Part shown: positions 51,164 to 54,731 of the stretch, piece after piece
How positions within the stretch are numbered: the stretch's first letter is position 1
How the letters are laid out: each line of letters opens with the position of its first letter
DNA from: Burkholderia sp. BCC0322
GTDB lineage: Bacteria; Pseudomonadota; Gammaproteobacteria; Burkholderiales; Burkholderiaceae
Assembly (NCBI RefSeq): GCF_902833045.1
Contig: NZ_CADFDU010000014.1
Coordinates: forward strand, 124,001-188,000
Reading direction: 5' to 3'
DNA: 64,000 nucleotides
Translations under genes and position numbers: made by a program
The notes under the pieces: model-generated
Databases searched by the model: none
What the model was told of the DNA's origin: nothing
The model's input: only the letters and a program-made list of their open reading frames with translations

Positions 51164-51859
51164 ATGTTCCAGATCCGCCGCGCCGCCGACCGCGACCAGC
51201 GCAGCCATGGCTGGCACGAATTCCTTCACAGCTTTCCTCTCTCGTCCGGCCGGAGCGGGCCGTCGGCGTTTGGCGCGTTGCGTGAACTGAACGAGGAATG
51301 CATCGCACCGACCCGCGGCTACGGGATGCGGCCGTACCGCAATGCGGAAATCGTCACCTGCGTGCTCGGCGGCGCGCTCGCGCATCGCGACAGCCTCGGC
51401 AACGGGGCGATCGTTCGCGCGGGCGGCGTGCAGCGCGTGAGCGCCGGCACCGGCGTCATGCTGAGCGAAACCAACGCATCGCGTGACGAGCCGTTGCGCC
51501 TGCTGCGGATCTGGCTTGCGCCGGCCGGGGCGGGCGGTCGTCCCGGCTACGCGCAGACGCGCTTTGTCGACGACGAGAAACGCGGGCGGCTGCGGCTGGT
51601 GGCGGCGCCGGACGGTGGCGATGGTGCGCTGTCGATCGGGGCGGACGTACGCATCTTCGCGGGGCTGATCGACGGCGATGAGGCGGCGGCGTTCGACGTG
51701 CCGGCCGGGCGCCGCGCATACGTGCACGTGGTGCGCGGCGACCTCGAGGTGAATGGCCGCGCGCTGGCCGCGGGCGACGGCGCGCGGATCGGCGACGTGG
51801 ACGCGGTGTCGTTCGCGCGCGGCCGGGCGGCCGAGGTGCTGCTGCTCGACGTGGCCTGA
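51164..51859 (+). CDS. Pirin/YhhW-family bicupin with most metal ligands replaced
   Basis: A 231-residue bicupin aligned along its length with the YhhW/pirin family (RSHGWHEFLHSF, GYGMRPYRNAEIVTCVLGGALAHRDSLGN, SAGTGVMLSETN). The family metal site uses two His in HPH, a His and a Glu in HSE. Here the first motif reads RPY and the second LSE, so three His ligands are replaced by Arg, Tyr and Leu and only the Glu is kept. YhhW-type quercetinase or redox-sensor activity is therefore doubtful. It ends at a strong shared terminator. Confidence 0.88.
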   Translation: MFQIRRAADRDQRSHGWHEFLHSFPLSSGRSGPSAFGALRELNEECIAPTRGYGMRPYRNAEIVTCVLGGALAHRDSLGNGAIVRAGGVQRVSAGTGVMLSETNASRDEPLRLLRIWLAPAGAGGRPGYAQTRFVDDEKRGRLRLVAAPDGGDGALSIGADVRIFAGLIDGDEAAAFDVPAGRRAYVHVVRGDLEVNGRALAAGDGARIGDVDAVSFARGRAAEVLLLDVA

Positions 51860-51929: not shown

Positions 51930-52481
51930 TTACTGCGCCGGCGCCGACGCGGCGTTGGCCGCGCGATGCTGCTCCCAGCGCGCCTTCATCTTCTCGTGGC
52001 GCTGTTCCATCTTCGCGAACTGCTGTTTGAGCGCCGTGCTGACCATCGTCTTCTGCGGGTCGTTCAGCCCGTTGTAGAACGTGAGCCACGCGGCGGACGT
52101 CTGCTCGCGCAGTTGCGCGTTCTGCGACTCGGCCTGCTGGCGTGCCGAGTGCATCGCGCTCAGGTCGAGGATCGGCTGGTTCTGCTGCGCCTTGAACTGG
52201 TCGCGCATCTGCTCGTGGGTCTTGCGCATCGCTTCACGATTCTGCTTCATCGTGTTGACGGCCGCCTGCCATTGCTGTTCCTGCGACGCATTGAGCTTCA
52301 GCTGGTCGTGCAGTTTCATGATGGCGCCGAACGGGCCGCCTTCGTGGCCGCCGTGCATCTGGTGGGCGCCGGGGCCGCCCGGAGGCGGCATGTCGTCGGG
52401 CTGCGCGGCGTGCGCGGTGCCGAATGCGAGAGCGAGCACGGTGGCGGCCGCGATGGCCACGCGGGAAGTCTTCTTATACAT
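51930..52481 (-). CDS. Spy/CpxP-family periplasmic chaperone
   Basis: A 183-residue exported helical protein. The signal peptide ends THAA near residue 26; a His/Gly/Pro-rich stretch (30-50) follows and could bind metal. The two LTxxQ-like motifs appear as LNASQEQQW (near 64) and LNDPQKTM (near 143), with long Gln/Glu/Lys amphipathic helices between, the cradle fold of Spy and CpxP. It likely protects periplasmic proteins and may hold the divergent sensor kinase inactive, as CpxP does for CpxA. AAGGAG lies 7 bp before the ATG. Confidence 0.85.
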   Translation of the reverse strand: MYKKTSRVAIAAATVLALAFGTAHAAQPDDMPPPGGPGAHQMHGGHEGGPFGAIMKLHDQLKLNASQEQQWQAAVNTMKQNREAMRKTHEQMRDQFKAQQNQPILDLSAMHSARQQAESQNAQLREQTSAAWLTFYNGLNDPQKTMVSTALKQQFAKMEQRHEKMKARWEQHRAANAASAPAQ

Positions 52482-52602
52482 TTCAGAAACTCCTTGTATC
52501 CAAAGGGTCCGGCGATGCGGTGCCGGGAACGCCGAGTACCGCATCCGGTAAGACGCAGGTTAGCGATGCAGGCCGCTGCCGGTGTTACGTGGGGCGGTGG
52601 CC

Positions 52603-52648
52603 GGGTTACCGCGCATTACAGTTGCCTTGCGCGGTAACCCGCAGTAAC
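52603..52648. promoter_or_regulatory. Paired CpxR-like boxes between the Spy-like gene and the two-component operon
   Basis: A perfect 12-bp inverted repeat, GGGTTACCGCGC (52603-52614) and GCGCGGTAACCC (52629-52640), is part of two outward-facing direct repeats. On the plus strand GTAAC-N5-GTAAC occurs at 52634-52648; on the minus strand GTAAT-N5-GTAAC occurs at 52605-52619. The known CpxR box is GTAAA-N5-GTAAA, so both sites differ mainly in the last base. They lie 58-103 bp before the regulator and 122-167 bp before the Spy-like gene. Confidence 0.7.
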
Positions 52649-52705
52649 CCTTTCGTCCCTTTGTTTCGTTCTTCGACTCCGCCCTCGCGCGGTAAACTTC
52701 GAGCC

Positions 52706-53431
52706 ATGACTACCCAGATCCTCATCGTCGACGACGACCAAGAACTCCGAGACCTGCTGCGCGACTACCTCGTGCGCCAGGGGATGGAAGTGTCCGTGCT
52801 GCACGACGCGGCGACGCTCGAGAAGCGCCTCGAGCGAGAGCGGCCCGACCTGATCGTGCTGGACCTGATGATGCCGGGCGTCGACGGCCTGACCGCGCTG
52901 CGCCAGTTGCGCGCGGCCGGCGACGACATCCCCGTGATCATGCTGACCGCCCGCGCGGACGACGTCGACCGCATCGTCGGGCTCGAGCTCGGCGCGGACG
53001 ACTACCTCGGCAAGCCGTTCAACCCGCGCGAACTGCTCGCGCGCGTGCAGGCCGTGCTGCGCCGCCGCCGCGCGACGCCGTCGGCGGCGGCTCCTGAACA
53101 GCGCGAGCCGTTCGCATTCGGCCGCTTCGTGCTCGACTTCCAGGCGCGCACGCTGTCGGTCGACGGCAAGCCGGCCACGCTGTCGAGCAGTGAATTCGCG
53201 CTGCTGAAGATCTTCGTGAACCATGCGCTGCGCACGCTGACGCGCGAGCGGTTGCTCGAGCTCCTGCACGGGCCCGAGTACGACGGTACCGACCGCGGCA
53301 TCGACGTCCAGGTGTGGCGCCTGCGCCGCATCCTCGAAACGGATCCGTCGACGCCGCGCTTCATCCAGACGGTCCGCGGGCGTGGCTACGTGTTCGTGCC
53401 CGACGGCGAGGCCCATGCGCAAACCCATTGA
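52706..53431 (+). CDS. OmpR/CpxR-type response regulator
   Basis: A 241-residue regulator. The receiver has the acidic cluster Asp9-Asp10-Asp11, phosphoacceptor Asp53 (VLDLMMPG), Thr81 and Lys103 (GKPF). The OmpR winged-helix domain (about 135-230) has LSSSEFALLKIFVNHA and RGRGYVFV. The kinase gene starts inside its 3' end, overlapping by 17 bp. Divergent from a Spy-like chaperone gene and preceded by CpxR-like boxes, it probably controls both itself and the chaperone in response to envelope stress. OmpR is the closest by sequence feel; the layout looks like Cpx. Confidence 0.93.
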   Translation: MTTQILIVDDDQELRDLLRDYLVRQGMEVSVLHDAATLEKRLERERPDLIVLDLMMPGVDGLTALRQLRAAGDDIPVIMLTARADDVDRIVGLELGADDYLGKPFNPRELLARVQAVLRRRRATPSAAAPEQREPFAFGRFVLDFQARTLSVDGKPATLSSSEFALLKIFVNHALRTLTRERLLELLHGPEYDGTDRGIDVQVWRLRRILETDPSTPRFIQTVRGRGYVFVPDGEAHAQTH

Positions 53432-54731
53432 TTCGCTGTTCGGGCGGCTGGCGCTACTCGTCGTCGGTGTCCTGCTCCTGTCGCACTTCGCGTGGTTTTT
53501 CGCGATGCGGCTCGAGCGCAGCCAGATGCAGACGCGTTACGCGGTCGAAGAGGCCGCGTTCCTGGTCGACGCGGTGCGCCAGCACGTCGAGCGCACGCCC
53601 GACCAGCCGCTGCCTTCGCGTGTGCGGCTCGTGGCGCCGGACAGCACCGACGTGCCGAATGGCGACCCGTCGAACCTGCCGGCGCCGCTCAAGCGGTTCC
53701 GCGACGACGTGAGTGAACGGATGCCGCCCGGCACGCGCGTCGAGATCGGCGCGCCCGGCCATCCGCCGGTGCTGTGGGTGAAGGAGCCGACCGACCGCAA
53801 CTGGATCGTGGTGCCGGTTCAGCCGCTGCGGCCGCCACGCTCGCTCGACCGGATGCTGTTGTGGCTCGGCACGATCTTCTCGGCCGGCGTGATCGCCGCG
53901 CTGTTCGCCGCCTGGCAGCTGCAGCAGCCGCTGCGTTCGCTGGCGCGTGCGGTCGCGCGCTTCGGCCGCGGCCAGCCGGTGCCGCCGCTGCGCGAGCGCG
54001 GCCCGCGCGAGCTGCGCCAGCTCACGCATGGCTTCAACCAGATGGTGGAACAGGTGTCGCAGGCCGAGAGCGACCGTGCGGTGATGCTGGCGGGCGTCGC
54101 GCACGACCTGCGCACGCCGCTTGCGCGGATGCGCCTGCGGGCGGAAATGATGGAAGACGTCCGGTTGCGCGACGGCGTCGTGCGGGACGTCGATTCGATG
54201 TCGCACATCGTGGATCAATTCCTCGTGTTTGCGCACGGCGGGTCCGATCGCAGCGAGCCGGTGCCGGTCGATCAGACGTGCGAGCGGATCGCGCGCAGCT
54301 ATCGTGCGGTCGCGCCGAATGCGCCGACGGTCCAGACCCGGCTCGACGCCGATCCGGGCTTCCGGCTGCCGACGGCGACGCTCGACCGGATCCTGTCGAA
54401 CCTGCTGGACAACGCCCATGCATACGGTGCGCCGCCCGTGCTCATCGAGACGGCGCGCACGCCGACCGGCTACGTGTTGTCGGTCAGCGACAGCGGCGGC
54501 GGGATCGCGCCGCGCGACCTCGCGGCGGCCACGCGGCCGTTCGTGCGGCTCGACCCCGCGCGCGGCGGCAACGGCCACAGCGGGCTCGGGCTCGCGATCG
54601 TCGAGCGGCTCGTCCTCAGGCTGGGCGGGGCGTGCGACATCGGCAACCGCCCCGAAGGCGGCCTGCGCGTCGCGATGACGTTCCCGTTCGAGGTCGTGCC
54701 GAAGGACGAACGCCACGCACAGGCCGCATGA
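53415..54731 (+). CDS. EnvZ/CpxA-type sensor histidine kinase
   Basis: A 438-residue kinase with two transmembrane segments (about 11-31 and 147-168) around a periplasmic domain of about 115 residues rich in Pro/Asp/Arg. HAMP follows (170-222), then the phosphorylation site His230 in VAHDLRTPLAR, the N box LSNLLDNAHAYG, and G boxes SDSGGGIAP and GHSGLGLAIV. It should phosphorylate the regulator encoded just upstream. The 17-bp overlap with that gene indicates coupling. The Spy-like protein encoded divergently is a candidate ligand for its periplasmic domain. Confidence 0.93.
   Translation: MRKPIDSLFGRLALLVVGVLLLSHFAWFFAMRLERSQMQTRYAVEEAAFLVDAVRQHVERTPDQPLPSRVRLVAPDSTDVPNGDPSNLPAPLKRFRDDVSERMPPGTRVEIGAPGHPPVLWVKEPTDRNWIVVPVQPLRPPRSLDRMLLWLGTIFSAGVIAALFAAWQLQQPLRSLARAVARFGRGQPVPPLRERGPRELRQLTHGFNQMVEQVSQAESDRAVMLAGVAHDLRTPLARMRLRAEMMEDVRLRDGVVRDVDSMSHIVDQFLVFAHGGSDRSEPVPVDQTCERIARSYRAVAPNAPTVQTRLDADPGFRLPTATLDRILSNLLDNAHAYGAPPVLIETARTPTGYVLSVSDSGGGIAPRDLAAATRPFVRLDPARGGNGHSGLGLAIVERLVLRLGGACDIGNRPEGGLRVAMTFPFEVVPKDERHAQAA

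Follow-up and report, generated by a model that had tools for sequence, protein, structure and literature searches.

A probable autoregulated OmpR/EnvZ-type envelope-stress module in Burkholderia, with a Spy-like output and, in a sister clade, an efflux output

Which regulatory system controls a small periplasmic protein gene that lies in the same arrangement as Escherichia coli cpxP-cpxRA and whose neighbours resemble OmpR and EnvZ? The locus lies in a 64-kb stretch of contig NZ_CADFDU010000014.1 of Burkholderia sp. BCC0322 (hereafter the window), where a gene for a Spy/CpxP/CnrX-superfamily protein is divergent from a response regulator-sensor kinase pair. We consider it probable that these genes form an autoregulated OmpR/EnvZ-type envelope-stress module whose output is the Spy-like protein here and, in a sister clade, an efflux pump. 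The module is best described as one that would resemble Cpx and Bae in its working to some degree while being an orthologue of neither. This reading rests on the identities of the genes, the architecture and conservation of the boxes between them, the promoter-like elements and the changed divergent neighbour.

Genes, boxes and promoter-like elements

The Spy-like gene (51930–52481, minus strand) encodes 183 amino acids with an N-terminal signal-like stretch and is preceded by a Shine-Dalgarno-like AAGGAG on the same strand (52490–52495). Its product had no NCBIfam match but matched the Pfam families Metal_resist (4.9e-12; 46.5 bits against a gathering score of 29.2) and LTXXQ (5.1e-08; 34 bits against 24.3), which places it in the superfamily. 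The structure model was helical, with a mean pLDDT of 80.5 and residues 5–27 and 33–45 below 50. A fold search of the PDB returned CpxP, CnrX, CnrX and CpxP as the top four matches, all of them weak (E 0.08–0.49); the CpxP and CnrX matches had a TM (target) of 0.54–0.65, none of 295 matches reached E 0.001, and the three PDB sequence matches (E 0.011–0.3) were not convincing. We treat chaperone activity of this protein as putative.

On the plus strand, the regulator gene (52706–53431; 241 amino acids, ATG at 52706) encodes an OmpR-clade response regulator with Response_reg and Trans_reg_C domains, and the open reading frame (ORF) of the EnvZ-type sensor histidine kinase (53415–54731; 438 amino acids, H-box H230 in AHDLRTPL) begins 17 bp inside the end of the regulator ORF and encodes HAMP, HisKA and HATPase_c domains; all five domains scored over their Pfam cut-offs. 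Between the two membrane helices of the kinase lies a sensor of ~112 residues (32–143), an estimate made by eye from hydrophobicity and the structure model. The best fold match of that model was the CpxA core, and all such matches were to generic kinase cores. A first-pass annotation of this DNA had given coordinates for the three ORFs, had placed boxes between a chaperone gene and a regulator-kinase pair, and had estimated the periplasmic kinase domain at about 115 residues; the ORFs and their layout were borne out, and the by-eye length lies close to that estimate.

The intergenic region holds two tandem boxes that face each other. The box distal to the response regulator gene, GTTAC-N5-ATTAC (52605–52619, plus strand), reads GTAAT-N5-GTAAC on the minus strand (GTAATGCGCGGTAAC), and the proximal box is GTAAC-N5-GTAAC (52634–52648, plus strand; GTAACCCGCAGTAAC), so that the pair is spaced 29 bp from start to start with a gap of 14 bp, and each box reads NTTAC-N5-NTTAC toward one of the two divergent genes. 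A third half-site, GTTAC (52584–52588, plus strand), begins 21 bp upstream of the distal box. The first-pass annotation was right to place these two sequences on opposite strands and to call the inverted repeat perfect, but its repeat length of 12 bp (52603–52640) was too short: the arms are 14 nt long (52602–52615 and 52628–52641) and 100% complementary. GTAAY-N5-GTAAC occurs twice in the window, both times as the operator boxes (shuffled windows averaged 0.01 matches, and 0 of 100 had two), and the facing pair occurs once even at a tolerance of three mismatches, and never in 100 shuffles.

Promoter-like elements lie on both sides of the operator. The predicted −10 element of the Spy-like gene, TAACCT (52557–52562, minus strand), is 21 bp from the third half-site, and an element of this kind was found 14–24 bp from that half-site in 103 of 108 Spy-bearing regions (control 2%). 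The predicted −10 element of the regulator gene, TAAACT (52693–52698, plus strand), lies 7 nt before the ATG. In a tally that still counted locus L080 as Spy-bearing, as did the tally for the third half-site given below, TANNNT stood 6–7 nt before the regulator ATG in 108 of 109 regions (control 2.7%), and a Shine-Dalgarno-like motif preceded that ATG in 0 of 109. Because the −10 element lies so close to the ATG and no Shine-Dalgarno-like motif intervenes, the regulator promoter is predicted to be of the leaderless type. Leaderless regulator mRNAs have been reported in B. cenocepacia (PMC4603805), and a leaderless ompR in Cupriavidus metallidurans (PMC7563307), the relevant passages of which do not say which ompR is meant.

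Conservation of the operator among relatives

Conservation was assessed in the regions upstream of regulator homologues with at least 60% identity. The 171 loci gave 140 distinct regions, identical upstream sequences being counted once; left out were loci with regulator identity below 60% or a match that began past residue 6 (and thus the broken locus L081), as well as L091, L098–L107 and the pattern-selected loci L219–L248. A divergent Spy gene was present in 108 of the 140 regions. The first-pass annotation had staked its reading on the boxes recurring upstream of orthologues, and both were found in 106 of these 108 regions; L175 retained the proximal box only and L064 the distal box only, which gives 107 of 108 for either box taken singly. 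The distal box was also present in 28 of the 32 regions without Spy, and the four regions without any box (L075, L077–L079) were other paralogues by the tree or had no kinase. Shuffling yielded one lone GTAAY-type box in 2800 regions and no pair.

Spacing was 29 bp from start to start in 102 Spy-bearing regions, 30 in two, 28 in one and 40 in one. By genus, as labelled here, the exact 29-bp pair was found in the Spy-bearing regions of g1 (39/39), g44 (9/9), g49 (4/4), g34 (4/4), g37 (3/3), g41 (1/1) and g40 (2/3), and in 40 of 41 from named Burkholderia and Paraburkholderia; g39 had both boxes at other spacings (3/3) and g31 the distal box only (1/1). The named relatives comprised 61 loci of these two genera, many of them from cepacia-complex species, and the window itself therefore most likely comes from a member of the B. 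cepacia complex. The N5 sequences diverge between genera and the half-sites stay constant. A third half-site, GTTAC or ATTAC, accompanied the 29-bp pair in 101 of 103 regions, and a CTT within the 14-bp gap was also conserved (58 rows, picked by pattern).

Genome-wide, the strict pair occurred at one place (hit on both strands) in 31 of 61 genomes, all of them among the 37 same-genus genomes, and the control read backwards gave 0 in 61 of 61. Half-site variants were checked in five of the six same-genus genomes without the strict pair, G033 (82% complete) being left out, and in each of the five (G007, G011, G015, G031 and G034) TTTAC replaces RTTAC in one half-site. Matches to Spy at 71% identity or more were present in 36 of the 37 same-genus genomes, one of them partial (G002), and the remaining genome is 82% complete. 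The locus of G002 (L081) is split, with its Spy and regulator parts 133 kb from the box pair. A tblastn match to Spy in L080 was rejected as it overlaps the boxes, and L080 was counted as lacking Spy. Overall, this regulatory locus is genuine and its conservation strong, and the regulator is predicted to bind there.

An exchanged neighbour and the ownership of the boxes

Three genera (g27, g35 and g48) carry a regulator that is 65–68% identical to that of the window and have no Spy gene adjoining it. The distal box was kept in all 26 of their distinct regions, with the proximal box 13 or 14 bp further on; an idea that the proximal box had been lost along with Spy proved wrong, since the box is there with GAAAC as its last half-site (26/26) and GTAAT (9), GTTAC (9) or GTAAC (8) as its first. 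Of the 26 distinct regions, 23 had a match to mdtA in the divergent position (23 of 27 when loci are counted), namely 9/9 in g48, 7/8 in g27 and 7/9 in g35; the match in L214 was weak, that locus being short of DNA, and L212 and its duplicate L112 were too short to tell. The divergent membrane-fusion protein scored over the NCBIfam MdtA/MuxA equivalog cut-off in three of three cases tested, and the following gene was MdtB/MuxB-like in two of two, with partial sequences that fell below the whole-protein cut-off. Of the 26 genomes of these genera, 20 encoded LTXXQ proteins at other places, and the total for all 29 genomes searched was also 20. The comparison suggests at least one exchange of the divergent neighbour between Spy and mdtA, which may have gone in either direction.

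In the circuit that we propose, the kinase would sense an envelope condition and phosphorylate the regulator, and regulator dimers would bind the facing box pair as well as the additional half-site, steps that follow what is known of these families. One operator would drive both the divergent Spy-like gene and, through the leaderless promoter, the regulator's own operon, activation being the sign of control that we infer; in the sister clade an efflux operon of the MdtABC/MuxABC type lies opposite this operator and is presumably driven by it. A more specific proposal, to which we give slightly less than an even chance, is that a single facing-box operator kept its regulator and kinase while its output switched between Spy and a pump of the MdtABC type; a set of targets like that of Bae would thus have been built independently on an OmpR scaffold, in a cell whose second OmpR-type regulator apparently uses these half-sites as well. 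If so, an operator of known spacing would predict the regulator of the Spy-like gene in Burkholderia and its relatives, and of the pump in sister genera, and the locus would be a natural case of output exchange beneath a fixed operator, which is the part that a specialist would not expect.

Several observations weigh against the proposed module. The Spy-less genera g27, g35 and g48 form one clade in the tree (seven rows, 100/100), for which reason only one exchange is counted, and two of the nine g35 regions (L070 and L071) have neither Spy nor mdtA at the operator, L071 having in the divergent position what by eye is an ORF for a LuxR-type response regulator. Genome search found an LTXXQ protein in 0 of 3 genomes of g32, yet both boxes stand at 29 bp there (L053, L080); the boxes therefore do not depend on Spy, and g32 may either have lost Spy recently or use the boxes for the regulator itself. 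Distant loci with a Spy-like gene and an OmpR-type regulator (L093, L118) had no exact box, in a scan whose output did not cover L113. Genome-wide, single boxes were not in excess: six genomes gave 48 (6–10 each) and the control read backwards 63, and a regulon drawn from a single-box search was rejected, only sites common to several genomes being considered. Finally, these half-sites may also be bound by another regulator of the OmpR type, and cross-regulation of two OmpR-type systems is possible.

In four Burkholderia genomes and in one of g44, the gene for this second OmpR-type regulator, paralogue B (METKNPSKILVVDDD; L222, L226, L231, L233 and L229), is itself preceded by a conserved GTAAC-N5-GTAAC, centred at about position 1501 of these loci, and the DNA-recognition region of the protein is similar to that of the window regulator. 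It is these two features that give substance to the idea that the boxes are chiefly those of paralogue B, the Spy-like gene being a member of a common OmpR regulon and the local pair a secondary controller; we regard this as unlikely, given that the operator stays with the promoter of the local pair across genera, the efflux clade included, and that the 29-bp pair occurs once per genome. By eye, paralogue B has TAAGAT ~7 nt before its ATG, which is leaderless-like. The OmpR of B. multivorans, for which a review names a D13V change (PMC12096841), is likewise an OmpR-type regulator of the same genus as the window, but it would fit paralogue B because of D13, a fit drawn from one residue, whereas residue 13 of the window regulator is E. 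GTAAC-N5-GTAAC also lies, at about position 1501 of the loci, upstream of an Hfq-domain gene in four of four Burkholderia genomes searched (L220, L225, L228 and L239, the domain identity resting on L239) and was not seen there in two g44 genomes of the same search.

A purely autoregulatory operator, whose boxes serve the regulator promoter beside a bystander gene, would explain why the boxes persist without Spy in g32 and beside other divergent genes in other lineages. It sits poorly with the divergent gene being Spy or mdtA in 131 of 140 distinct regions, with 103 of 108 regions having a Spy −10-like element close to the third half-site, and with the orientation of the boxes, each toward one of the two genes, and we hold it to be quite improbable. 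The first-pass suggestion that the Spy-like protein gates the kinase found no support, as loci without Spy keep the kinase and a sensor of similar size, although gating may still operate in Spy-bearing loci. Compared with the kinase sensor of the window, that of L053 is 53% identical, which falls inside the 25–75% of Spy-bearing rows other than the closest, and those of the efflux clade are 21–30% identical.

Kinship with known systems and other Spy-like loci

The best NCBIfam model for the regulator was OmpR (309 bits, short of its cut-off of 331), against BaeR (171 bits, cut-off 380) and CpxR (166 bits, cut-off 341), and the best for the kinase was EnvZ (225 bits, short of its cut-off of 415), against 108 bits for CpxA (cut-off 486) and 64 and 95 bits for two BaeS models (cut-offs 603 and 500). 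Pairwise identity of the regulator to E. coli OmpR was 52%, to CpxR 40% and to RstA 35%. A tree of 63 rows assigned the regulator to a clade of Burkholderiaceae (29 rows, 96/92) without E. coli CpxR, RstA or OmpR; E. coli OmpR stood at an open fork that paralogue B and other families share, and CpxR and RstA were long branches outside. The first-pass impressions that the regulator is OmpR-like, not CpxR-like, and that the system is separate from E. coli Cpx agree with these scores, which do not indicate CpxR or CpxA orthology; the tree does not indicate CpxR orthology either.

The first-pass use of CpxR-like boxes as a pointer to Cpx did not hold. The regions upstream of E. coli ompF (TTTACTTTTGGTTAC) and between cpxP and cpxR (TTTACGTTGTTTTAC) both contain the NTTAC-N5-NTTAC form, as TTTAC-N5-GTTAC and TTTAC-N5-TTTAC, respectively, whereas none was found upstream of ompC in the same scan, and paralogue B has GTAAC-N5-GTAAC too. 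Since the ompF site, which we take to be the OmpR F1 site, has the same form, the box cannot tell Cpx from OmpR, and a GTAA-N5-GTAA box should not be read as Cpx. That the locus is a true Cpx system under another name, with CpxR and CpxA orthologues and CpxP as feedback inhibitor of the kinase, is very improbable and as orthology already disfavoured: the E. coli layout, the cpxP-cpxR box, the weak top fold match to CpxP and the generic one to the CpxA core speak for it, but the regulator and kinase score far nearer OmpR/EnvZ, the tree sets CpxR on a long branch apart from the clade of the regulator, the ompF site matches the box just as well, and the kinase is retained where Spy is absent.

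The preferred OmpR/EnvZ-type module shares features with each of three E. coli systems. With OmpR/EnvZ it shares its best NCBIfam models and the form of the ompF site, but it misses both equivalog cut-offs, belongs to a clade that does not include E. coli OmpR and has Spy or MdtA as its neighbour. With CpxRA-CpxP it shares a divergent gene for a small periplasmic protein of the CpxP/Spy type and a tandem NTTAC-N5-NTTAC box between the genes; it differs in being non-orthologous by score and tree and in its two facing boxes, third half-site and leaderless-type regulator promoter. Both spy and mdtABC are targets of BaeR in E. coli, so that the divergent neighbours in the window (Spy) and in the sister clade (MdtA/MuxA) correspond to BaeSR targets, but the scores do not indicate BaeR or BaeS orthology, and the GTAAC-type boxes differ from the BaeR box.

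DzrR is likewise a response regulator for envelope-targeting agents, described from Dickeya, Ralstonia and Burkholderia and acting on a resistance-nodulation-division (RND) pump (PMC10052836). It is AdeR-like, has a CTCCAT direct-repeat box and targets RND-8/DesABC, and the passages that describe it mention no Spy; it was set aside for its different box and target. A biofilm operon of B. contaminans was also set aside, as the part of the paper that describes it gives its regulator as the BCAL1443 orthologue and places a gene between regulator and kinase (PMC5192318). A link to MisR/MisS, considered from a literature listing, was dropped; one paper retrieved for CpxP and Burkholderia proved, in the part seen, to concern Pectobacterium CpxP, and another a CpxP-domain gene of B. 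pseudomallei. No description of the locus was found in open-licence PMC papers.

The same genus has a second Spy-like gene (L086–L090), 25–36% identical, with no GTAAY-N5-GTAAY nearby in five of five loci and one loose GAAAC-type match in L090; L087 and L088 also contain a match to a sensor kinase in that stretch. Three other families have a Spy-like gene beside an OmpR-type regulator; the two genes are divergent in L113 and L118, and the Spy-like gene lies directly upstream on the same strand in L093. Burkholderia's own mdtA has a conserved GTAAC-N4-GTAAC/T some 180–370 bp upstream in 9 of 11 loci (L269–L276 and L279; it was not seen upstream in L277 and L278), with a spacing of N4 rather than N5 and, in most, a further GTAAC or GTTAC. 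In the window, a Pirin-family gene (51164–51856) adjoins the Spy-like gene.

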